Assembly: GCF_014863405.1 (NCBI RefSeq)
Contig: NZ_JACZZA010000015.1
Coordinates: 1 to 64,000 of the forward strand
DNA from: Dyella acidiphila
Lineage (GTDB): Bacteria; Pseudomonadota; Gammaproteobacteria; Xanthomonadales; Rhodanobacteraceae
DNA length: 64,000 nucleotides
Reading direction: 5' to 3'
Made by a program: the position numbers and the translations under genes. This document shows positions 29,946 to 43,270 of this stretch, piece after piece. Every line of letters begins with the position of its first letter. The first letter of the stretch is position 1. The notes under the pieces are model-generated. The model had not been told where the DNA came from and searched no databases. It saw only the letters and a program-made list of their open reading frames with translations.

Positions 29946-30914
29946 TTGCGCACCTTCAGCGTAACCAGTGGAACACGCCTAGATGGCCACAAGCTATCGT
30001 TCCGGCAAATCATTCGTCTACTCATACATGCCGAGGCGTCTCCCAAGGGGACGACCTTGGTTGCGACATCGAATGCGGTCTGCATGGCTGAAAAATGCTC
30101 TCAGCAAAACATCATGAAAATTCGCGAGGCAATCATGGAGAATGCTAATGCCTCTAATCAACCGAAACTGTCAGGGACTATCCATATGGATGGCATGCAT
30201 GTATGCGGGAAATTTCGGCGTACGAATCGACGTATGAAAGCAACGGCCAATTCGGTTTTGACAGTACATGGTAACGCTGAGATCAAAAGGCGATTGCCGG
30301 CAATCAATCCTCATTCCAAAGACAACCAACGGCGTGCCAAGAACAAGCGTGTAGCGATTGCAATGGTTGAAGTGGATGCTCAGCATGGTGGAGCGAAACG
30401 CACCATTGTCGCTATGTGTCGATCGGAAAACGCCAGAGATGTGTTGCAACTTGCAAGGCAATACATTGAGCCAGGAGCACAAATTTTCACTGACGAAAAT
30501 CCAGCCTATAACGGACTCGGAGAATTGTTTGAACACTATGTTGTCAACCACAGTGTCGAGTATTCGACTCCTGAAGGCATTAACGAAAACTTGGCGGAAA
30601 GCTTCTTCTCCAGGGTAAGGCGCAGCGAATATGGGGTGCATCATGGTTTTCGCCCCACGTACATGACCTTCTATATGCACGAATACGCTTGGCGTGAAAC
30701 GCATAGACGTAAAACTCAGCACGAGAAGATTAAACAGCTCGCCACTTGGTTGCTTACCCCAACCTATTCCAGGTACTGGAGGGGATATCACTGCGGAAAT
30801 CGACGCAGTCACTTGCGACATCCGCGCCCGGAAATCGTCATGGGACCTGTGGATGCACCGTGGCAAGATGCCAGGAGCAAGGCTCGCGGGGGCCGCGATC
30901 GCGGGACTTCGTAA
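29946..30914 (+). pseudogene. ISXO2-like DDE transposase, probably lacking its N-terminal zinc ribbon
   Basis: Residues about 75-290 are a full ISXO2-like catalytic domain: HMDGMHVCGKF (D82), FTDENPAYNGL (D183) and NLAESFFSRVRRSEYGVHH (E218), a D-D-34-E arrangement. Family members normally start with a cysteine zinc ribbon of about 60 residues leading into a FSVTSGT motif. Here FSVTSGT is at residue 4, behind a TTG, and the upstream frame hits a stop at 29895. Cysteine-rich remnants (CSCRRW) are in another frame, so a frameshift is suspected. An internal ATG at 30084 also exists. Activity is doubtful. Confidence 0.75.
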
Positions 30915-32065: not shown

Positions 32066-33463
32066 TCAAACCACCCCGGCCAGATAAAACACCCCGATCA
32101 CCACCAGCACCGCCCCGGTCTTGATCAAGGTCACCGCAAAAATATCCCGATAAGACTGTCGATGCGTCAGTCCCGTCACCGCCAGCAAGGTGATCACCGC
32201 CCCGTTGTGCGGCAGGGTATCCATCCCCCCCGAAGCCATCGCGGCCACCCGATGCAACACCTCCATCGGAATCCCCGCCGCCTTCGCGTTGTGGATGAAC
32301 GTATCGGCCATCGCCGCCAGCGCAATGCTCATCCCGCCCGAGGCGGAACCGGTAATGCCGGCCAGTGCGGTCACCGATACCGCTTCATTGAGCAGCGGAT
32401 TGGGTACGGCATGCAGCGCGTCGGCTACGGTGCGGAAGCCGGGCAAGGCGGCGATCACGGCGCCGAAGCCGTATTCGGAGGCGGTGTTCATCGAGGCCAG
32501 CAGTGCGCCGGCAACAGCGCTCTTGCTGCCTTCGGCAAAATGCCGTGACACCGGCCGCCATGCCGACACCAGCACGCACAGGATGCCCAGCAACAACGCG
32601 CCTTCCACCGCCCAGATCGCGGCGATCTTGGATACCTCCTGTACCACCGGCGCCGCATGGCCGACTACCGCCGGTACGAACGATTGGGTGCTGCCGTACC
32701 ACTGCGGAATCCAGCGTGTGAACAGCAGATTGCCTACGCCGACCAGCACCAGCGGCAATAGCGCGAGCAAGGGATGCGCGAGTTTGCTGCCGTCGAACGG
32801 TGCCGGTTCGTTGAGCAGGCTGTCGCCATAGCCTTCGCCTGCGGCAAGCGCTTTGCGCCGGCGCGATTCGAGGTAAAGCATGCCGACGGCAAGAATGAAC
32901 AGCGCGCCCAGCGTGCCCAGCCAGGGCGCGGCCCAGGCGGTGGTGCCGAAGAACGCGGTGGGAATGATGTTCTGGATCTGCGGCGTGCCGGGCAGTGCAT
33001 CCATAGTGAAAGTGAATGCGCCCAGCGCGATGGTGCCGGGGATCAGGCGCTTGGGAATATCCGATTCGCGGAACAGTTCCACCGCGAACGGATAGACCGC
33101 GAACACAACCACGAACAGCGATACGCCGCCATAGGTCAGCAGCGCGCACACCAGCACGATCGACAGCATCGCGCGGCTGCGTCCGACCAGGCCGATGGTG
33201 GATGCGACGATGGCCTTGGAAAAGCCGGACAGCTCGATCAGCTTGCCGAATACCGCGCCCAGCATGAAGACCGGGAAATACAGCTTCAGAAAGCCGACCA
33301 TCTTGTCCATGAACAAGCCGGTGAAGATCGGCGCCACCAGCCGCGGATCGGTGAGCAGCACGGCGCCCAGCGCGGCGATCGGGGCGAACAGGATCACGCT
33401 GTAACCGCGGTACGCCGCCAGCATCAGAAAGCACAATGCCGCCAGCACGATAAGAAAGGCCAT
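32066..33463 (-). CDS. GntP family permease (candidate 3-hydroxybutyrate transporter)
   Basis: About 465 residues and at least twelve hydrophobic segments, starting FLIVLAALCFLMLAAYRGYS. ASMNTASEYGFGAVIAALPG, GITGSASGGMSIALAAM and MASGGMDTLPHNGAVITLL are GntP-family signatures. The family moves gluconate and other small hydroxy acids with protons; some members are D-3-hydroxybutyrate permeases. The neighbouring PHB depolymerase and oligomer hydrolase make 3-hydroxybutyrate the best guess. The ATG at 33463, with AAGGA upstream, is preferred; ATGs at 33472 and 33481 are possible. It is divergent from a TonB receptor. Confidence 0.82.
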   Translation of the reverse strand: MAFLIVLAALCFLMLAAYRGYSVILFAPIAALGAVLLTDPRLVAPIFTGLFMDKMVGFLKLYFPVFMLGAVFGKLIELSGFSKAIVASTIGLVGRSRAMLSIVLVCALLTYGGVSLFVVVFAVYPFAVELFRESDIPKRLIPGTIALGAFTFTMDALPGTPQIQNIIPTAFFGTTAWAAPWLGTLGALFILAVGMLYLESRRRKALAAGEGYGDSLLNEPAPFDGSKLAHPLLALLPLVLVGVGNLLFTRWIPQWYGSTQSFVPAVVGHAAPVVQEVSKIAAIWAVEGALLLGILCVLVSAWRPVSRHFAEGSKSAVAGALLASMNTASEYGFGAVIAALPGFRTVADALHAVPNPLLNEAVSVTALAGITGSASGGMSIALAAMADTFIHNAKAAGIPMEVLHRVAAMASGGMDTLPHNGAVITLLAVTGLTHRQSYRDIFAVTLIKTGAVLVVIGVFYLAGVV

Positions 33464-33536
33464 TCCATCCATCCTTTGCATGGGCCTGAAGCACAGGCGC
33501 CATGCAGTATCCCCACAGCCTTGCACGGCACGGCAC

Positions 33537-33550
33537 TGTACGAAGGTACA
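33537..33550. promoter_or_regulatory. Palindromic motif TGTACGAAGGTACA (site 1)
   Basis: The perfect-arm palindrome TGTAC-GAAG-GTACA sits midway between the divergent permease and TonB-receptor starts (74 and 78 nt away). A nearly identical site lies between the response-regulator and oligomer-hydrolase genes at 41388-41402. It is proposed as the operator of the local LuxR-type regulator. Confidence 0.55.
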
Positions 33551-33628
33551 AGTGTCGGTTGGCGCGCTGCTGCCTAAGCTGCGCAGCATGGGCATCCGTG
33601 GGCGGATGCACGCACCGCGAGGGGAAAC

Positions 33629-35869
33629 ATGAAGCGTAGCCATTTGAGTCTGGCGATAGGTCTGGCCGTGGGCCTGGCCGGTGCCGCGCCGCTGTATGCG
33701 CAGCAGACCAGCAGCACCGACAACAGCGCGAGCCAGACGCAGGGCAATGCGAGCCCGAGCAGCGCGAAGAAGCTCGACCAGGTCACCGTCACCGCGCGCA
33801 AGCGCGAGGAAACGCTGCAGGATGTGCCGATTGCGGTGACCGCGCTTACCGCGCAATCGCTCTACAACCAGAACGTGCAGGATCTGAGCGATCTGCAGGG
33901 CAAGGTGCCGGATATGCAGATCTATGCGGCGCGCGGTTCCAACACCACGCTTACCGCTTATATCCGCGGCATGGGCCAGGCCGATCCCACCTGGGGCTTC
34001 GATCCGGCGGTGGGCATCTATCTGGACGATGTATACATGGCACGCCCGCAGGGCACCTTGCTGGATGTGTTCGACGTGGACCGCATCGAAGTGCTGCGTG
34101 GTCCGCAGGGCACGCTATACGGCAAGAACACCATCGGCGGCGCGATCAAGTACGTGTCCAAGCCGCTGCCGACCAAGACCGAAGGCTCGGTGGAAGTCAC
34201 CACCGGTACGCACGGCGAGAAGGATGTGAAGGCCGCGCTGGGCGGCGCCTCGGCCGATGGCGTGTGGCGCGGGCGGGTGGCGGTGGCCAGCGAGCACAAC
34301 AATGGCTTCGGCACCGATGTGCTTACCGGCAGCCGCAACGGCAACAAGAACACCAATGCGGCGCGCGCCACGCTGGGCTTCTTCCCCACCAGCAATTTCA
34401 ATGCGCAGCTGGAAATTGACGGCATGCACGACAATTCCAATCCGCGCGGCGCGAAGATGCTGGTGGCCAACAGCTTCTATCCGCAGTACCAGCCGCTATC
34501 CAGCGATTACGACACGCGCAGCGGCATGTCGCAGCTCAACTGGACGCGCATGAAGGGCGCGGCGCTGACCATGAACTGGATTGTCAGCCAGAACTGGACG
34601 CTGAAATCGGTAAGTGCGTACCGCTCTTCCAGCACCGAAAGCAATATCGACTTCGACACCTTGCCGGTGGCCGTGGCGGACGTGGGGGCGATCTACAAGG
34701 ATCACCAGTTCTCGCAGGAAATCCAGGCCAACTACGATGCCGGCGGCGCCGTGCATGGCGTGATGGGCGTGTACTACTTCAACGGCTCGGCTTCCGGCGA
34801 TATCGACAATATCTTCCTCGGCTCGCCGCCGTACAGCACGTTGGGGCTGGCCGAGTACGGCAATACCGGCGGCAGCATGGGTACGCGCAGCTATGCCGGC
34901 TACGGCGATTTCACCTGGGACATTAGCCCGCTGTGGAGCCTGGACGTGGGTGCGCGCTACACCGACGAAACCAAGACGGCGGTGATCCAGAACTACGCTT
35001 ATTCCAATGCCAACTTCAATGTGCCGATCGCGGTGCTGGCCAATTTCGCCGGCTCGCACGCATCGCATAATATTTCGCCGAAAGTCTCGCTCGATTACAG
35101 CGCCAGCGAGCAAGTGAAGTTGTATGCCAGCTACAGCGAGGGCTTCCACTCGGGCGGCTACAACATCCGCGCCAACTGCGCCGAAATTCCCAGCTCCTGC
35201 CGGCCGATCGCGGACGAGAACGTGAAGTCCTACGAGCTGGGCAGCAAGATGAGCTTCTTCGACGACAGCCTGATGTTGAACACCGCGCTGTTCCACAACA
35301 TCTACTCGAACATCCAGCTGTCGGTGTTCAGTTCCTACACCGAGCCGAACGGAAGCCAGGGGTTCTTCGGCGATTTTACCAACGCCGGCAAGGGCCATAT
35401 CGACGGTATGGAAGAAGAGTTTGCCTGGTATCCCTCGCAGCAGTGGACCATCAGCGGCAACTTCTCCTACCTGCATACCAAGTACACCGAGTTCTACAGC
35501 GAAGGCGTGAATATCGCCAATACGCAGTACTTCACCAATGCGCCGAAGTGGTCGGGCGCACTGAACCTGCAGCGCTCGTTCCCGCTGGGTGCGTATGGCG
35601 ATCTCAGCGCGCGTCTGAGTTACCAGTACCAGACCTCGGTATGGCCGGAGACTACGCTGTCGCCGCTGATCAAGCAGGGCTCGTATGGGCTGATCAACGC
35701 CGGCCTGATCTGGCAGATCGACCAGCCGTGGTCGCTCAGCCTGCAGGGCACCAACCTGGGCGACAAGTCGTATCGCACCACCGGCTACAACATTGCGGCG
35801 CTGGGTATTGTCACCGGTTTCTACGGGCCGCCGCGGATGGTGACTTTGTCGGCCAAATACACGTTCTGA
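33629..35869 (+). CDS. TonB-dependent receptor (PHB/3-hydroxybutyrate locus)
   Basis: A 746-residue outer-membrane receptor with a GGGGAAA ribosome site and a signal peptide ending at PLYAQQ. LDQVTVTARKREETLQDVPI is the TonB box and start of the plug, with LRGPQGTLYGKNTIGGAIKY typical of the FecA-like class, then a barrel ending in AKYTF. ARKREETLQDVPIAV is common in receptors for non-siderophore organic molecules in Sphingomonadales and Xanthomonadales. With its divergent permease partner it may import hydroxybutyrate oligomers. Iron or other ligands remain possible. Confidence 0.87.
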   Translation: MKRSHLSLAIGLAVGLAGAAPLYAQQTSSTDNSASQTQGNASPSSAKKLDQVTVTARKREETLQDVPIAVTALTAQSLYNQNVQDLSDLQGKVPDMQIYAARGSNTTLTAYIRGMGQADPTWGFDPAVGIYLDDVYMARPQGTLLDVFDVDRIEVLRGPQGTLYGKNTIGGAIKYVSKPLPTKTEGSVEVTTGTHGEKDVKAALGGASADGVWRGRVAVASEHNNGFGTDVLTGSRNGNKNTNAARATLGFFPTSNFNAQLEIDGMHDNSNPRGAKMLVANSFYPQYQPLSSDYDTRSGMSQLNWTRMKGAALTMNWIVSQNWTLKSVSAYRSSSTESNIDFDTLPVAVADVGAIYKDHQFSQEIQANYDAGGAVHGVMGVYYFNGSASGDIDNIFLGSPPYSTLGLAEYGNTGGSMGTRSYAGYGDFTWDISPLWSLDVGARYTDETKTAVIQNYAYSNANFNVPIAVLANFAGSHASHNISPKVSLDYSASEQVKLYASYSEGFHSGGYNIRANCAEIPSSCRPIADENVKSYELGSKMSFFDDSLMLNTALFHNIYSNIQLSVFSSYTEPNGSQGFFGDFTNAGKGHIDGMEEEFAWYPSQQWTISGNFSYLHTKYTEFYSEGVNIANTQYFTNAPKWSGALNLQRSFPLGAYGDLSARLSYQYQTSVWPETTLSPLIKQGSYGLINAGLIWQIDQPWSLSLQGTNLGDKSYRTTGYNIAALGIVTGFYGPPRMVTLSAKYTF

Positions 35870-35900
35870 GATTGGACACCGTGCCATCCCTCACTAGCCC

Positions 35901-35976
35901 GTCATCCCGGCGAAGGCCGGGACCCAGCGTCTTTCACGCGGCGAAGCCACTGGGTCCCGGCCTTCGCCGGGATGAC
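35901..35976. repeat. Long hairpin, REP-like (family D)
   Basis: Two perfect 27-bp arms (35901-35927, beginning GTCATCCCGGCGAAGGCCGG, and 35950-35976) with a 22-nt loop follow the TonB-receptor stop. A second copy with one mismatch is at 37171-37246, after the depolymerase gene. It probably acts as a terminator or RNA barrier. Confidence 0.85.
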
Positions 35977-36090
35977 GGTGAGGGTTTGGAATAGATTGCC
36001 GCGAGCCCGCAGCTGATGTATTCGCAAACATCCAGTCAAGCGGGCATGACGGCCTCAGCGGTGTCCCACTTTTCGGCAAGGAGCGTAATC

Positions 36091-37119
36091 ATGCGTACCA
36101 TCACAAAACTATGTATGGCCGTGATATTCGCTGCCGCCGCCGCACACGCCGATGATGCCGTGCAGCCGCTGCCACATCTGAAGCTCGATCCCGCGCGTGT
36201 CGCCGTGGCTGGCTTGTCTTCCGGCGCGTATATGGCGACCCAGATGCAGCTCGCCTATCCGGATATTTTCCCCAATGCGGCCTTGGTGGCCGGCGGCCCC
36301 TACGCCTGCGCCCAAGGCAAGCTGCAGCTGGCGCTGAGCACCTGCATGAAAGGCACGCCCGCACCGGATCCCGTGGCCTTGTTGGCCACGGCCAAGCAAC
36401 GTGCAGCGGCAGGGCAAATCGGTCCGCTGCAGGATCTCGCGCATGGCCGCGTGTATCTTCTGCACGGCACCGCCGACACCGTGGTGGCGCCGGCGGTCGC
36501 GGAAGCGGCGGCGCATTTCTACCAGGCACTGCATGACGAGCCGGGCATGTCGGGCTTGCAGGTGGTGGACGATGGGCAACGTGCCTTCAGCCATAACCTG
36601 CCGCTGGCGGCGAGTGGCGACGATTGCGGCAAGTCCGTTTCACCGTATCTGGGGCACTGCGGTTTCGATGCGGCGGGCGCGATCTTTACGCAAATGTTCG
36701 GTGCAGCACCACACGCTGCCGCTGCGCAGGCACAAGGCGAATTGCGCCGCTTCGATCAGGATGCATTGCGCCAGGGCGGCAAGGATGCCTTGCTGGCGAC
36801 GACCGGTTATCTGTACGTGCCACCCGCTTGCGCTGCCGGCAAGCCGTGCGGCCTGCTGGTGGCTTTCCATGGCTGCAAGCAGAATGCCGAAGCCGTCGGT
36901 CAGGCCTTCGTCAAGGATGCCGGCTTCAACCGCTGGGCGGACGTCTACAACGTCGCCATCCTGTATCCTCAGACGCGCGCAAGCTTTGCGCCTTTGAATC
37001 CGCAGGCATGCTGGGATTGGTGGGGATATTCGGGCAGCGACTACGACACGCGGCACGGTGTGCAGCCGGCGTGGGTGGTGGCTGCGGTGAGGGCGCTGGG
37101 GTTGCCGCTACGGCATTGA
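36091..37119 (+). CDS. Secreted PHB depolymerase family esterase
   Basis: A 342-residue exported serine hydrolase with an AAGGAG site and a signal peptide ending AAAAHA. VAVAGLSSGAYMATQMQLAYP holds the lipase box GLSSG (S43). VYLLHGTADTVV and the late GLLVAFHGCKQNAEAVGQAF, AILYPQT and CWDWWGYSG are characteristic of polyhydroxybutyrate depolymerases acting on amorphous or released PHB. Products would be 3-hydroxybutyrate and its oligomers. The reading frame extends upstream to 36016, but the signal peptide fixes the start. It is flanked by two copies of the family D hairpin. Confidence 0.85.
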   Translation: MRTITKLCMAVIFAAAAAHADDAVQPLPHLKLDPARVAVAGLSSGAYMATQMQLAYPDIFPNAALVAGGPYACAQGKLQLALSTCMKGTPAPDPVALLATAKQRAAAGQIGPLQDLAHGRVYLLHGTADTVVAPAVAEAAAHFYQALHDEPGMSGLQVVDDGQRAFSHNLPLAASGDDCGKSVSPYLGHCGFDAAGAIFTQMFGAAPHAAAAQAQGELRRFDQDALRQGGKDALLATTGYLYVPPACAAGKPCGLLVAFHGCKQNAEAVGQAFVKDAGFNRWADVYNVAILYPQTRASFAPLNPQACWDWWGYSGSDYDTRHGVQPAWVVAAVRALGLPLRH

Positions 37120-37170
37120 TACACACCCGCGCCGCTTTCTTTTCGGGAAAACGGCAATCCTCCACAACCC

Positions 37171-37246
37171 GTCATCCCGGCGAAGGCCGGGACCCAGTGT
37201 CTTTCGCGCGCCGAAGTCACTGGGTCCCGGCCTTCGCTGGGATGAC
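37171..37246. repeat. Long hairpin, REP-like (family D)
   Basis: Arms 37171-37197 and 37220-37246 match with one mismatch. The unit is nearly the same as that at 35901-35976, so the depolymerase gene is bracketed by two of them. Confidence 0.85.
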
Positions 37247-37330
37247 GGGTGAGCGTGCGTTTTGCAGATATCCCGTGGCCGCTGGCATGTGGGCGCGACT
37301 TCAAGTGCCTGCAGGTTGTTGGGCCAGGAC

Positions 37331-40300
37331 ATGCTGAGCACTGGCACCATCGCCACTGCCGCACTGATCTGGCTCGGCCTGCTGTTCGGCGTGGCGCTCA
37401 CCGGCGAACGTCGCCCGCAGCTGTTCGAAAAACGCTGGGCGATCATCTACGCGCTGTCGTTGGCGATCCACTGCACCTCCTGGACCTTTTACGGCACGGT
37501 CACTCAGGCCAGCCGTTCCGGCTGGTGGCTGCCGCCTACGTTTGTCGGCGCGATCCTGATGTATGTGTTTGCAGTATCGGTGCTGCGTCGCCTGGTACAG
37601 CTGGCGCGCGAATACAACGCCGGCTCGATTGCCGACCTGATCGTGGTGCGGCTGGGGCGGCATGCTGGCCTGGCCGCGCTGGTCACGGCCGTGGTGTTGG
37701 TCGGCATCGTGCCGTATATCGCCTTGCAGCTGAAAGCAGTGGCGATGAGCTACACCCTGCTGCGCACGGGACAACTGGCCGAATCCGCACCATGGCACGA
37801 CAGCGCGCTGTACGTGGCGTTGCTGATGGCGCTGTTCGCCATGCTGTTCGGCACGCGCCGCGCCTCGGCGATGGCGCACAACCGCGGCCTGGTGTTGGCG
37901 ATGGCGTTCGAGTCGCTGTTCAAGCTGGGCGCGATGCTGGCGCTGGGCAGCTTGCTGTTCACGCCGCTGCCGGCGGGTGCGGCGATCGGTGCGCCGCCGC
38001 CGCATGACAGCAGCGGCTTTCCCGCGCTGATCCTGCTCGGCGCACTGGCGATGTTTACCTTGCCGCACCAATTCCATGCCGGCGTGGTGGAGTGCCGTGA
38101 CAGTTCGCATGTGCGTACCGCACGCTGGCTGTTTCCGCTGTACATGCTGCTGATCGCCTTGCCGATCCTGCCGCTGGCGAAGATGGGCGATGCGTGGCTG
38201 GCGCCCAGCGGCGTGCCGTCCGACCTGTACGTGCTGGCGTTGCCGCTGGCGCGCAACCAGCACGGGCTGGCGCTGGTCGCGTTTCTCGGCGGCCTGAGTG
38301 CGGCGACCAGCATGGTGGTGGTCGCCACGCTGGCCTTGAGCCTGATGGTGGTCAATCACTTCATCGCACCCTTGCGCGTGCGCGCCGGCTGGGGCCGCGA
38401 CGAGCGTGGCGATTTGCGTGGCGAAGTGCTCAACCAGCGCCGTGTGGCGATCCTCGCGGTGATCCTGCTGGCTTGGGCATACAGCCGCCTGCTTGCGCGC
38501 AACGATGCCTTGGCGGATATCGGTGCGCTGTCCTTTTCCGCGCTGGCGGGATTGGCGCCCGCATTACTGGCTGCGGTATATCGCCCGCAACTTGGGCCGC
38601 GCGCGGTGGTATGGGGTTTGGCGATCGGCACGCTGGTGTGGTTGTACGTGTTGTTGCCCGCCGGCGTGGCGCAATTGCCGGCATGGCTGCAGCAGGCGCC
38701 ACGCTGGCTGACGCCGGATGGCTTTATGGGGCTGGACGATTGGAGCCGCCTCGGCCGCGCGGTGGCGATGAGCCTGGTGGTCAATGTGCTGGCCATGCTG
38801 GCGGTGGCCAATACGCGTTATGGACGCCGGCGCTGGACCGCAGGCGTGGGCCATGTCAGCGTGGCCGAGCTGCGCGCGCTGGCCGAACGGTTCCTGCCGC
38901 ACGAACGGGTGGAGCGTCTTTTTATCGGCACCGATGCGCAGCGCGCCGCCGGCAATGCGCGCATCGCCGAAGTGGAACACGAACTGGCGGCGGTGATCGG
39001 CGCCGCTTCCGCCCGCCTGCTGCTGGAAGTAGTGCATCGGCAAGGGCGCGCGGAACTGGATGCGGTTGCCGCGATCGTCGGCGAGGCCGCGCAGGATCTG
39101 CATTTCAGTCAGCGCGTGCTGGAAGCGGCGCTGGAAAACATGAGCCAGGGTATCTGCGTGGTGGATAGCGAATTGCGCCTGGTGGCGTGGAATAGCCGCT
39201 ATGCCACGCTGTTCGGTTATCCGCTGGAACTGCTGCAGGTGGGGCGTCCGGTGGCTGACTTGATCCGCCGCAATATCGCCGCCGGCATCATCGGCCCCGG
39301 CGATGTGGAGGCGCGCGTGCGGCGGCGCCTGGCACATATGCGCGCCGGCACCGAGTTGCTGTCCGAGCGGCGTTTTCCCGATGGCACGGCGGTGGAGATC
39401 CGCGGCCATCCGATGCCCGGCGGCGGCTACGTGGCAACGTTCACCGATGTCACTGCATTCCGCGAAGCCGAACACGCCTTGACCCTGGCCAACGAGACGC
39501 TGGAATTGCGTGTGGCCGAACGCACGCGCGAACTGGCGCAGGCGAGTGCGCAGGCGCATCGCGCGAATGCGGCGAAGAGTCATTTTCTGGCTGCCGTCAG
39601 TCACGACCTGATGCAGCCGCTGCATGCAGCCCAGTTGTTTGCGCATGCGCTGGGCGAGCGGGGCTACGACGCGGCGCATGTGCGCCATCTCAACGATTCG
39701 CTGGCTGCGACCGAAGGCCTGTTGGCCGGCTTGCTGGATATTGCACGCCTGGAAGGCGGCCGCCTGCATCCGCAGCCGCGCGATTTTCCGCTGGCGGAAG
39801 TGTTCGAGCCGCTGGCGGCGGAATTTCGCGCACTGGCCAGCGACCGTGGGGTGAAGTTGCGAGTGGCGGAGAGCCGCGTCTGGGTGCGCTCCGATCCTCT
39901 GTTGCTGCGCCGTGTGCTACAGAATTTTCTTTCCAATGCGTTGCGCTACAGCGAGCGCGGGCGGGTGCTGCTCGGCTTGCGGCGGCACGCGCAAGGCCTG
40001 CGCCTGGAAGTGTGGGATACCGGCCCGGGAGTGGCCGAAGAAGAGCGCAGCCTGATCTTCGAGGAATTCCGGCGTGGCAGCACAGCGGGCGGGCAGGGGC
40101 TCGGCCTGGGTTTGTCGATTGCGCAGCGCGTGGCCGCCTTGTTGGAACATCCGCTCGGTTTGCGCTCATGGCCTGCGCGCGGCAGCGTGTTCTATATCGA
40201 TGTGCCGCGTGCGCACACTGTGTATCACGCTGCGGCGCCGACCGCGGCCGAGCTGAGCCCGGTACCGTCAGGACGCGCGCTGATTCTCGATAACGAACCG

Positions 40301-40642
40301 GCAGCCTTGGCGGCGTTGAAGGCACTGCTGCATAGCTGGGATTGGCAGGTGCATGCAGCATCGCAGGCCGAGCATGCGCTGGCGGTGCCGTGGCAGCCGG
40401 ATCTGTGTGTGCTCGATTACCACCTCGATCGCGGCCAGACCGGCTTGCATGTGCTCGACGCGCTGCGCGATCGCTATCCCGCCATGGCCGCGGTGGTGCT
40501 TACCGCCGATCGCGATGGCGAGCTGCGCCAGCGCCTGCTCGAAGCGGGCGCCGTGGTGCTGTACAAGCCGCTCAAGCCGCTGGCATTGCGGCAGGTGATG
40601 CAGCGGGTGATGGCGGCGCGCGATGTGACGTCGGCGCAGTAG
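37331..40642 (+). CDS. CrbS-like hybrid: SSF transporter domain, PAS, histidine kinase, receiver
   Basis: About 1103 residues. Residues 1-500 are a sodium:solute symporter-like membrane region (WAIIYALSLAIHCTSWTFYG, SIADLIVVRLGRHAG, FTLPHQFHAGVVE). Then come a PAS domain (LENMSQGICVVDSELRLVAWN, near 600), a dimerisation domain with H758 (FLAAVSHDLMQPLHAAQLF), an ATPase domain (GQGLGLGLSIAQRVAAL) and a C-terminal receiver with D1029 (LCVLDYHLD). CrbS proteins pair with LuxR-type CrbR and control acetate use in vibrios and pseudomonads. It is convergent with its likely regulator (13 nt apart). Short-chain acid sensing is inferred. Confidence 0.87.
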   Translation: MLSTGTIATAALIWLGLLFGVALTGERRPQLFEKRWAIIYALSLAIHCTSWTFYGTVTQASRSGWWLPPTFVGAILMYVFAVSVLRRLVQLAREYNAGSIADLIVVRLGRHAGLAALVTAVVLVGIVPYIALQLKAVAMSYTLLRTGQLAESAPWHDSALYVALLMALFAMLFGTRRASAMAHNRGLVLAMAFESLFKLGAMLALGSLLFTPLPAGAAIGAPPPHDSSGFPALILLGALAMFTLPHQFHAGVVECRDSSHVRTARWLFPLYMLLIALPILPLAKMGDAWLAPSGVPSDLYVLALPLARNQHGLALVAFLGGLSAATSMVVVATLALSLMVVNHFIAPLRVRAGWGRDERGDLRGEVLNQRRVAILAVILLAWAYSRLLARNDALADIGALSFSALAGLAPALLAAVYRPQLGPRAVVWGLAIGTLVWLYVLLPAGVAQLPAWLQQAPRWLTPDGFMGLDDWSRLGRAVAMSLVVNVLAMLAVANTRYGRRRWTAGVGHVSVAELRALAERFLPHERVERLFIGTDAQRAAGNARIAEVEHELAAVIGAASARLLLEVVHRQGRAELDAVAAIVGEAAQDLHFSQRVLEAALENMSQGICVVDSELRLVAWNSRYATLFGYPLELLQVGRPVADLIRRNIAAGIIGPGDVEARVRRRLAHMRAGTELLSERRFPDGTAVEIRGHPMPGGGYVATFTDVTAFREAEHALTLANETLELRVAERTRELAQASAQAHRANAAKSHFLAAVSHDLMQPLHAAQLFAHALGERGYDAAHVRHLNDSLAATEGLLAGLLDIARLEGGRLHPQPRDFPLAEVFEPLAAEFRALASDRGVKLRVAESRVWVRSDPLLLRRVLQNFLSNALRYSERGRVLLGLRRHAQGLRLEVWDTGPGVAEEERSLIFEEFRRGSTAGGQGLGLGLSIAQRVAALLEHPLGLRSWPARGSVFYIDVPRAHTVYHAAAPTAAELSPVPSGRALILDNEPAALAALKALLHSWDWQVHAASQAEHALAVPWQPDLCVLDYHLDRGQTGLHVLDALRDRYPAMAAVVLTADRDGELRQRLLEAGAVVLYKPLKPLALRQVMQRVMAARDVTSAQ

Positions 40643-40655
40643 GAGGGCTCGGTGA

Positions 40656-41321
40656 TCAGGCCGAGGGAAGCGTTGCCGGTTCGCTCAGATCCAGCGAACG
40701 CAGCAGCACCCCCGCCTGCGTGCGATTGCGCACGCCAAGCTTTTCGAAGATCGCCGTGGCATGCGCTTTCACCGTGCGCTCCTGGATATTCAGGCGATCG
40801 GCGATCTGCTTGTTGAGCAGGCCTTCGGCCAGCAGGTTCAGTACGCGGTATTGCTGTTCGGTGAGCCGCGCCAGGCGTGCGGCGAGATCGGTGTCGGCGG
40901 GGTGGCTGGGCAACGCGGCTACGCTGCGCGCCAGTTCCGGCGGCAGCCAGCTGCCGCATTCGAGCACCGCGGCGACCGCTGCGCTGATTTGTGCGGGATC
41001 GGCGCGCTTGGGAATAAAGCCCGCCGCGCCGTGATCGAGCACGCGCCGCACTACCTGCGGCTCGTCGTGCGCCGACACCACCAGCACCGCCACCGCCGGA
41101 TATTGCCCGCGCAGGGCGGCCAGCCCGGACAAACCCTGGCTGCCGGGCATATGCAGATCCAGCAGCACCAGGTCCAGCTCCGGATCGGCGGACAGTGCGT
41201 CCATCACGCCGGGCAGATCGCTGGCTTCCAGCACGCTGCACGCATCCAGGTGCTCGCTGGCCGCCTGGCGCAGGGCAGCGCGGAACAGCGGGTGGTCATC
41301 GGCAATCAGCAGGCGCGGCAT
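40656..41321 (-). CDS. LuxR/NarL-type response regulator (CrbR-like)
   Basis: A 221-residue regulator. The receiver has LLIADDHPLFRAALRQ, DLVLLDLHMPGSQG (phosphoacceptor aspartate), VLVVSAHDE and AAGFIPKRADP. The output domain is LuxR-type (LTEQQYRVLNLLAEGLLNKQIADRL, then RTVKAHATAIFEKLGVRNRTQ). It starts at 41321, or at 41333 with four more residues. It faces the hybrid kinase tail to tail and is divergent from the oligomer hydrolase, with which it shares a 119-nt promoter region containing the GTACGAA palindrome. Confidence 0.88.
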   Translation of the reverse strand: MPRLLIADDHPLFRAALRQAASEHLDACSVLEASDLPGVMDALSADPELDLVLLDLHMPGSQGLSGLAALRGQYPAVAVLVVSAHDEPQVVRRVLDHGAAGFIPKRADPAQISAAVAAVLECGSWLPPELARSVAALPSHPADTDLAARLARLTEQQYRVLNLLAEGLLNKQIADRLNIQERTVKAHATAIFEKLGVRNRTQAGVLLRSLDLSEPATLPSA

Positions 41322-41387
41322 GACGCGCACCATAGCGGTGCCTGCGCGCAACGTCGAGGTGAAAAGCGGCCCATCGCAAGTTATCGC

Positions 41388-41402
41388 TGTTGTACTTTCG
41401 TA
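41388..41402. promoter_or_regulatory. Palindromic motif TTGTACTTTCGTACG (site 2)
   Basis: Read on the minus strand it is CGTACGAAAGTACAA, differing at one internal position from the GTACGAAGGTACAA at the permease/TonB promoter. It lies 38 nt before the hydrolase ATG and 66 nt before the response-regulator start. Confidence 0.55.
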
Positions 41403-41440
41403 CGATGGCCGCGCGGTGCAGGCTTGCCTATGGTGGGCGG

Positions 41441-43270
41441 ATGAATATCCGCACATGTCTGGTTGGGATCGCCATGCTGGCTGCCGGCGTGGCGCAGGCG
41501 TCTTCGACGGAGCCTTCGATGCAAGGGATCGAGTTTGTGCAGGGTGAGGTGCGCGTCACCACGCATCGCGGACAGGACGACCTGCTCAGCGCCGGCCTCG
41601 GCTTGGCTGGCTTGAAAGCGGCGCCGTCGCCGTTCGCGGATGCGCAGCATCCCACCGCGCAGGAATTGCGCCGGCGCGCGATCCAGGCCAGTTGGAAAGG
41701 CATTGCCGATCTTGGTCCGCTGGGCGGCTTCGGCAGTGTCTATGGCGCGGTGCCGGATGTGCCCGGTCGCGAATACCAGGCCTTCGCCAGGATTCCCGGC
41801 GCGCATGCGCCACATCGCGTGCTGGTGCAGGTGCCCGACAAGTTCGACCAGGCACATCGCTGCCTGGTGGTAACGGCGTCCTCCGGTTCGCGCGGTGTCT
41901 ACGGTGCGATCGCCCTGGCCGGCGCCTGGGGCCTGCCGCGCGGTTGCGCGGTGGCCTATACCGACAAGGGCACCGGCTCGGGCTATTTCGATTACGGCGA
42001 CTACAGCGGCGTCGCACTGGACGGCACACGCGCAAAACGCGGCACGGCGCTGCTGGAATTCGAACCTGCGGCGAACGGCGAAGGCATCGCCGTCAAGCAT
42101 GCGCATTCGGGCGACAACCCCGAGGCCGACTGGGGCCGGCACGTGCTGCAGGCCGCGCAGTTCGGCCTGGCCATGCTCGATCGCGCCTTTCCCGAGCAGG
42201 CGCCCTTCACGCCGCAGAACACCCGCATCATCGCCACCGGTCTTTCCAACGGCGGTGGCGCCGTGCTGCAGGCGGCCGGCATGGACGATGCGCACATGCT
42301 CGCCGGGGTGGTCGCGCTGGAGCCGAATGTGCACACGCCCGGCCACGGCCGTGCGCTGTACGACTATATGAGCGAAGCAGCGCTGTGGCTGCCGTGCGCG
42401 CTGCTCGATGCACGCTTCAACACCACGCCGTTCGCACGCGACGCGCATGGCGCGCCGCATGCGGCGTGGCTGACCCGCTGTGCCAGCCTGCATGCGCAAG
42501 GCTTGCTCACTGCGACCACGCCCGACGCGCAGGCGCAGGAAGCGCTCGCGCATCTGCACCGCAGCGGCTGGACCGATCAGGCCATGGCCACCGCCGCATC
42601 GTCCACCGCGCTCGATCTGTGGCGCGTGATCGGCGCGGCATACGCCTCGGCGTATCTGCGCCGCGGCGCAGGCGGCATGCCTTGTGGCTATCGCTACGCC
42701 GCGCTGGTCGATGGCAAGCCAGGCGTCGCCGACGCGGCCACGCGTGCGAGCTGGTGGGCGGATGCCTCGGGCATTCCACCGGGCAATGGCGTGGGCCTGT
42801 TCGGCGGCACCGATGGCAGCGCCGATCCGCAGCTGGCCGGCATCACTTGCCTGCGCCACCTGTGGAGTAGCGACGATGCCGACGCACGTGCCCTGCACGC
42901 CGCGGTGCAGGCACTCGCCGTGCGACTGCCGCGCCGTGATCTGCCCCTGTGGGTGCTGCACGGCGCCGACGACGGCCTGCTGCCTACGGCATTCACCTCG
43001 GAGCCTTACATCGCATGGTTGCGCGCCGAGCAGCGCCAGCCGCTGTACTGGAAGGTGCCGCACGCGCAGCACTTCGATGCGTTCCTGGCGCTGCCGGGCT
43101 TCGGCGATCGCCATCTGCCGCTGCTGCCGTATGGCTACGCGGCGCTGGATCGGCTGTGGGCGCATTTGTTCCAGGGCCAGCCGTGGCCGGCGCAGCTGCC
43201 GGTGCCGGAGGGGCAGGCGCGTGGGGCAGGGGCTCTGCAACGCGGCATGTTGGGTATGACAGGTACGTAA
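41441..43270 (+). CDS. D-(-)-3-hydroxybutyrate oligomer hydrolase
   Basis: A 609-residue exported hydrolase with the signal [20 protein letters not shown]. The family pattern is clear: [62 protein letters not shown] and [18 protein letters not shown] (S269), with HGADDGLLP (D510/D511) and [10 protein letters not shown] (H541/H544) completing a triad. The enzyme cuts soluble hydroxybutyrate oligomers made by PHB depolymerases into monomer. Its length fits the family. The weak ribosome site makes the exact start less sure. It belongs functionally with the depolymerase at 36 kb. Confidence 0.88.

Follow-up and report, generated by a model that had tools for sequence, protein, structure and literature searches.

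A probable poly-3-hydroxybutyrate utilization locus with its own CrbS/CrbR-like two-component system in Dyella acidiphila

The window analyzed here (64,000 nucleotides from contig NZ_JACZZA010000015.1 of Dyella acidiphila) contains a block of six genes that probably serves the use of poly-3-hydroxybutyrate (PHB) or its fragments. All six open reading frames, taken up from an initial annotation of the window, are complete. A minus-strand gene for a GntP-like permease (32066–33463, with a second possible start at 33472) is followed by plus-strand genes for a TonB-dependent receptor (33629–35869; PF00593, 8.5e-38; PF07715, 8.7e-20), a type-2 short-chain polyhydroxyalkanoate depolymerase, PhaZ (36091–37119; NF050059 and PF10503), and a CrbS-like hybrid kinase (37331–40642) comprising a transporter-like membrane part and PAS_7, HisKA, HATPase_c, and receiver domains. 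The gene for a CrbR-like LuxR-type response regulator with REC and GerE domains (40656–41333, minus strand, with a second possible start at 41321) faces the kinase gene and diverges from that for a 3-hydroxybutyrate (3HB)-oligomer hydrolase (41441–43270, plus strand; PF10605). There are two divergent promoter regions, namely 33464–33628 (permease/receptor) and 41334–41440 (regulator/hydrolase), both containing a box of the form GTAC-N4-GTAC or close to it: GTACGAAGGTAC at 33538–33549, and GTACTTTCGTAC at 41392–41403, with a plus-strand −10-like TATGGT (41429–41434) located 20 bp past the GATGG of the latter box. REP-like (repetitive extragenic palindromic) inverted repeats occupy the gaps between the receptor and depolymerase genes (35901–35976) and between the depolymerase and kinase genes (37171–37246).

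The depolymerase passes NF050059 (322.5 bits against a cut-off of 280) over profile positions 1–304 of 305, and is also matched by PF10503 in two swapped pieces, as expected for a type 2 depolymerase. It aligns over 309 residues (5.3e-49, 170 bits) with the solved PHB depolymerase PDB 2d80, which we take to be a single-domain fungal enzyme attacking the polymer. One serine, one aspartate, and one histidine, presumably the catalytic residues, are invariant in all 14 aligned depolymerases, that of the window included. The hydrolase passes PF10605 with 410.8 bits (E = 1.4e-122). Overall, ORFs and family models agree with the initial annotation as to the depolymerase, the oligomer hydrolase, the receptor, and the two-component pair. 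A second depolymerase-like gene, 36% identical and without a box, is located on another contig of the same genome (L105:8255–9484, contig C3).

That the depolymerase is extracellular, as had also been proposed, is not established: a signal peptide was recognized by eye, whereas Pfam and NCBIfam searches revealed no substrate-binding domain, and the enzyme may therefore reside in the periplasm and act on oligomers. Indeed, we give a little less than an even chance to the reading that both enzymes act on soluble oligomers only, in the periplasm, with the receptor feeding in fragments freed by other microbes—that is, to a real regulon whose products do not attack the polymer. Besides the missing binding domain, the recurrence of the TonB receptor in the locus, a lipoprotein-like signal seen by eye at the start of a relative's hydrolase (L264), and the periplasmic location of Rhodospirillum rubrum PhaZ, which is said to resemble extracellular ones (cited in PMC7204398), are all consistent with it; however, the best solved relative, 2d80, is named a PHB depolymerase.

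No PhaC_N domain, the criterion by which PhaC was judged absent, was found in the D. acidiphila genome, and therefore the cell appears not to synthesize a class I/II storage polymer itself, although PhaC_N may miss class III/IV PhaC enzymes. PHB would thus most likely be met from outside. The genome has one 3HB dehydrogenase above the cut-off, encoded on another contig without a box, and the description of the block as self-contained therefore fails. It also has one acs above the cut-off, likewise without a box. A single candidate for an acetoacetate-activating enzyme (L106) was checked and looks, from its best matches, like a long-chain acyl-CoA ligase. Elsewhere in the genome, contigs C2 and C24 hold many acyl-adenylating domain matches; the open frames concerned are very long and probably belong to large peptide-synthetase clusters.

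The permease itself was matched by no Pfam or NCBIfam model. An Alteromonad relative from the same kind of cluster, 33% identical (blastp, 9.7e-55), reaches 35.4 bits against PF02447 (cut-off 22.5) through its first 130 residues, and is the sole basis for filing the permease as GntP. In the kinase, PAS_7, HATPase_c, and Response_reg score above their cut-offs and HisKA just under (26.4 against 26.9 bits). The transporter half has no Pfam match, and its profile matches PDB 10ed_A, a "histidine kinase," over residues 7–529 (7.7e-58); the membrane half has 11 hydrophobic segments. The STAC model is not among the kinase matches shown, no search having been aimed at it. The AlphaFold models are poor, with a mean pLDDT of 46 for the permease and 51 for the membrane part of the kinase. 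The regulator scores 213.3 bits against the ErdR model NF041830, below a cut-off of 390 that is strict, in that only one of 185 genomes of the class passes it. A CrbR paralogue, 53% identical, adjoins a kinase in which a dCache domain replaces the transporter part (L102:9089–12412, contig C1 of the same genome).

The inheritance of the block was followed in 197 genomes of the Rhodanobacteraceae, the D. acidiphila genome included. The hydrolase was found in 149 of these, the kinase in 97, the permease in 91, and the depolymerase in 90; all four occur together in 80 genomes, the hydrolase alone in 49, and none in 44. Kinase counts refer to listed matches of at least 56% identity among three candidates scored per genome, a group at about 46% being excluded as a different kinase. 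Depolymerase and kinase co-occur with a Fisher p of 1e-35, kinship ignored. Where two of the genes share a contig, they lie within 15 kb in every case for depolymerase and kinase (75/75), depolymerase and permease (78/78), and kinase and permease (74/74), and nearly always when the hydrolase is paired with one of the other three (58/60, 76/78, and 60/63). The grouping is more than chance. The scattering in close relatives that the initial annotation had named as a refutation was not seen; the genes stay together. Named relatives, from a scan in which 80 of 135 relatives were kept, include Dyella, Rhodanobacter, Luteibacter, Frateuria, Fulvimonas, and Oleiagrimonas, and many of the loci occupy one chromosomal place with the same flanking genes. 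A metagenome-assembled genome labelled Chitinophagaceae (L123) carries permease, receptor, depolymerase, and kinase at 73–86% identity; its bin or label is probably wrong.

The box is shared by both promoters across these loci. An exact GTACN4GTAC is present in 64 of 67 distinct orthologous permease/receptor gaps (83 of 87 loci), and a matrix built from permease/receptor boxes alone finds the regulator/hydrolase box in 38 of 51 distinct regions at the 99.9% null level and in 41 at the 99% level. Applied to two block-internal gaps, the same matrix finds none in 60 and none in 61 distinct sequences at 99.9%, and none and two, respectively, at 99%. The plain pattern is rare elsewhere, with 96 of 105 sites in 1.65 Mb of loci falling in the two promoters; these two counts, like the 83 of 87 loci, include some genomes twice, and distinct-sequence counts underlie the main claims. 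In the 5.07 Mb genome of D. acidiphila, exact GTACSAARGTMC has only two sites, both in the block promoters, a result in which the place and not the number is informative, since a reversed control pattern also has two sites and the pattern was derived with both sites in view. No site of note was found by the box matrix at acs (best score −21.3), bdhA, the second PhaZ-like gene, or the CrbR paralogue.

In the hydrolase promoter, the box is followed by a TATGGT-like −10 at a distance of 19 bp (36 regions) or 20 bp (one region) in 37 of 41 distinct box-bearing regions, the other four having no such −10. If transcription is taken to start 7 bp past the −10, the box would be centered near −42, a position close to that of the CrbR (ACTU) box of Pseudomonas acs, reported at −52 to −36 in PMC5715377. 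The GTAC-N4-GTAC of the block resembles the published box, approximately TAC-N4-GTC, without being identical to it. A matrix of the five ACTU sites printed there, run on the window only, ranked the second box 18th and the first outside the top 25, and alone would therefore have missed both.

Gain and loss of the block can be followed most closely within the genus, where six of 16 sampled genomes have it, nine lack it, and one (G038) is intermediate. At the cut-offs used, depolymerase, kinase, and permease are absent genome-wide from the nine; a receptor and a full regulator, looked for at the locus only, were not found there. At most 1 kb separates the hydrolase from the gene otherwise found beyond the permease in eight of these nine genomes. 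On a tree of four neighboring proteins, which takes in the hydrolase itself and in which one row (G125) covers 31% of columns, the block changes state at least four times on well-supported branches, and the clustering of block state was matched or exceeded in 83 of 500 shuffles. The block thus comes and goes as a unit within the genus. By pattern, one of the nine genomes has an exact box in the hydrolase promoter, three have altered forms, and five have none. The genome with the exact box (G145) is sister to the block-bearing G104 (100/99), and retains beside the intact box a 27-residue remnant of the regulator start at 81% identity (L044:7058–7138), the rest of the block being gone from the locus; its loss of the block therefore looks recent. 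Outside the genus, no box was found upstream of the hydrolase in any of 20 hydrolase-only genomes, out of 40 such (over a distance of about 1.6 kb, or 1.05 kb for L211), apart from a partial box in L194 and one genome of the 20 above the 99% null by matrix. In G038 (L107), receptor, depolymerase, and kinase have given way to a porin and an iron alcohol dehydrogenase, flanked by a regulator and by a permease of 70% identity; the orphan regulator has an intact box.

Gain and loss as a block would also be expected of a mobile island without joint control, in which the box is an unrelated conserved element, and an IS1595-type transposase gene (29946–30914) does lie in a lower-GC stretch 1.2 kb beyond the permease. 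However, the constancy of chromosomal place in many loci, the presence of one box at a steady 19–20 bp from the −10, and its absence or alteration in most promoters of regulator-less genomes make such an island very unlikely.

Outside the family, 21 loci were found via the depolymerase (L170–L190), of which 10 also have regulator, receptor, and permease; another (L174), at a contig end, has receptor and permease. Three Alteromonad loci (L170, L186, and L188) show a second gene order—kinase, regulator, and receptor / permease, MetX-like esterase, depolymerase, and short-chain dehydrogenase. L188 is the only one of these tested: its dehydrogenase scores above the cut-off of TIGR01963 (3HB dehydrogenase), its depolymerase above that of NF050059, and its permease above that of GntP. 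GTACN4GTAC is present in 11 of 11 Alteromonadaceae permease/receptor gaps, and here regulator and receptor share both a box and the direction of reading from it; by this layout of boxes and genes, the regulator would control its own gene in both lineages. A tree was built of 63 regulators, with the remaining CrbR copies from G200 and G204 and third copies from G198 and G199 omitted. In this tree, the copies belonging to the block group as a single clade across both orders (95/91), to the exclusion of the sole sequence that passes the ErdR model (L243) and of eight other Alteromonad CrbR copies. Five further members of this clade, fetched as a test, all adjoin permease, receptor, and kinase together with hydrolase and/or 3HB dehydrogenase, and a sixth copy (G209), not in the tree, has the same setting. 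In L261, L262, and L266 (Rheinheimera-type), two boxes lie 82 bp apart in the permease/receptor gap, with no depolymerase beside.

The recurrence of these families bears on the substrate. The substrate range of GntP permeases and TonB receptors is wide, polyesters other than PHB could be cleaved by type-2 esterases, and in G038 a porin and an iron alcohol dehydrogenase take the place of receptor, depolymerase, and kinase, all of which would fit a cluster serving another polyester or hydroxy acid. Against this, PHB/3HB families co-occur above curated cut-offs, with NF050059 and PF10605 in D. acidiphila, NF050059 and TIGR01963 in L188, and a TIGR01963 dehydrogenase beside a PF10605-type hydrolase in L263; the dehydrogenase of L264 misses TIGR01963 and passes NF009093, of the same name. 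A substrate other than PHB is thus unlikely.

It is very unlikely, too, that the pair is simply the genome's acetate CrbS/CrbR, adjoining the PHB genes by descent and controlling acs rather than the block. The domain layout is that of CrbS, no second CrbS-like kinase was found in the genome at 1e-120 among three candidates scored, and acetyl-CoA is an end product of PHB use. However, acs has no box, many relatives hold the block pair together with a second CrbS of about 46% identity, and the regulator falls outside the branch of the sole ErdR-passing sequence; furthermore, the box is in the block promoters, and its exact form is gone from eight of nine block-less genomes of the genus. The CrbS/CrbR-like label of the initial annotation can accordingly be kept for domain layout and for a separate branch of the CrbR kind, but not for membership by the ErdR cut-off or for control of acs. 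The pair would work like CrbS/CrbR but, by that cut-off and the box-less acs, need not be the acetate system of that family.

We therefore consider it probable that the locus serves the use of exogenous PHB or PHB fragments and is controlled by a distinct branch of the CrbS/CrbR kind. Several findings weigh against this reading. In 49 of the 197 genomes, the hydrolase is present while depolymerase, kinase, and permease are lacking, which means that it is not bound to the regulon and that it must have another use or control there. The box matrix still passes in three of the nine block-less promoters of the genus at the 99.9% null (four at 99%), and loss of the box after loss of the block is therefore partial. 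Ten of the 21 out-of-family depolymerase loci have no regulator, receptor, or permease nearby, although two of these loci are on contigs no longer than 10 kb; three such genomes hold the cluster elsewhere, without PhaZ. None of the 11 Alteromonad boxes passes the 99.9% null of the Rhodanobacteraceae matrix, and six pass at 99%. Finally, the kinase tree splits the two orders, with the acetate-type and dCache kinases of the Rhodanobacteraceae nearer the local clade; it gives no support to a single origin of the kinases, and the two-component pair may not have one origin. Of the regulon first proposed, joint inheritance and a common box stand, without the hydrolase as a fixed member; of PHB scavenging, what stands is one co-inherited PHB/3HB gene set recurring in a second order with a 3HB dehydrogenase, rather than a self-contained system.

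In the proposed mechanism, PhaZ and the oligomer hydrolase would be exported, to the periplasm or beyond, and would cut PHB or its oligomers to 3HB, the TonB receptor would take oligomers through the outer membrane, and the GntP-like permease would carry 3HB inward, where the 3HB dehydrogenase, encoded elsewhere, would begin its oxidation. The dedicated CrbS/CrbR-type pair would sense the substrate or a product, and the phosphorylated regulator would bind the GTAC-N4-GTAC box to activate the permease gene on one side and a putative receptor–depolymerase operon on the other. At the second box, it would activate its own gene and that of the hydrolase.

More tentatively, and with rather more doubt than confidence, we suggest that this is a polyester utilization locus, present in at least two orders of Gammaproteobacteria, and is controlled by a distinct branch of SLC5 transporter-kinases whose transporter part senses 3HB or its short oligomers. 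Among the open-license papers searched, none was found that links external PHB use to an SLC5-type kinase or to any dedicated two-component system. If true, such a link would supply a named regulator along with a DNA box, as well as a receptor for the uptake of polyester fragments, and would add a substrate to the known transporter-kinase targets (acetate, histidine, pyruvate, and a few others). The signal of this sensor class could then be tested with a defined substrate, and the regulator clade and box could serve as a marker for likely PHB users in genomes.

Among known systems, CrbS/CrbR (MxtR/ErdR) of Vibrio and Pseudomonas, which according to passages of PMC5715377 has an inverted-repeat box just before an RpoD promoter, shares with the block the transporter-like part, PAS, kinase, and receiver domains, a LuxR-type regulator, and an inverted-repeat box near the promoter. 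The block differs in its separate regulator clade, in neighbors and boxes that point to PHB/3HB genes, and in a box-less acs. RpuS/RpuR of Sinorhizobium fredii, in which an SLC5/STAC kinase and a LuxR-type regulator control the gene of a carboxylate transporter (PMC9100948), resembles the block pair in its kind of kinase and regulator, but the transporter is a pyruvate symporter, and no depolymerase, receptor, or hydrolase is named in the passages concerned. The single-domain PHB depolymerase of PDB 2d80/2d81 has the same motif order over the aligned residues, but is distant from the Dyella enzyme, which sits in a regulated bacterial cluster. Polysaccharide utilization loci unite a receptor, exported hydrolases, an inner permease, and their own regulator in one inherited locus. 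The present block, their possible PHB counterpart, likewise brings receptor, hydrolases, permease, and regulator together, but would act on a polyester rather than a glycan, and under SLC5-type two-component control.

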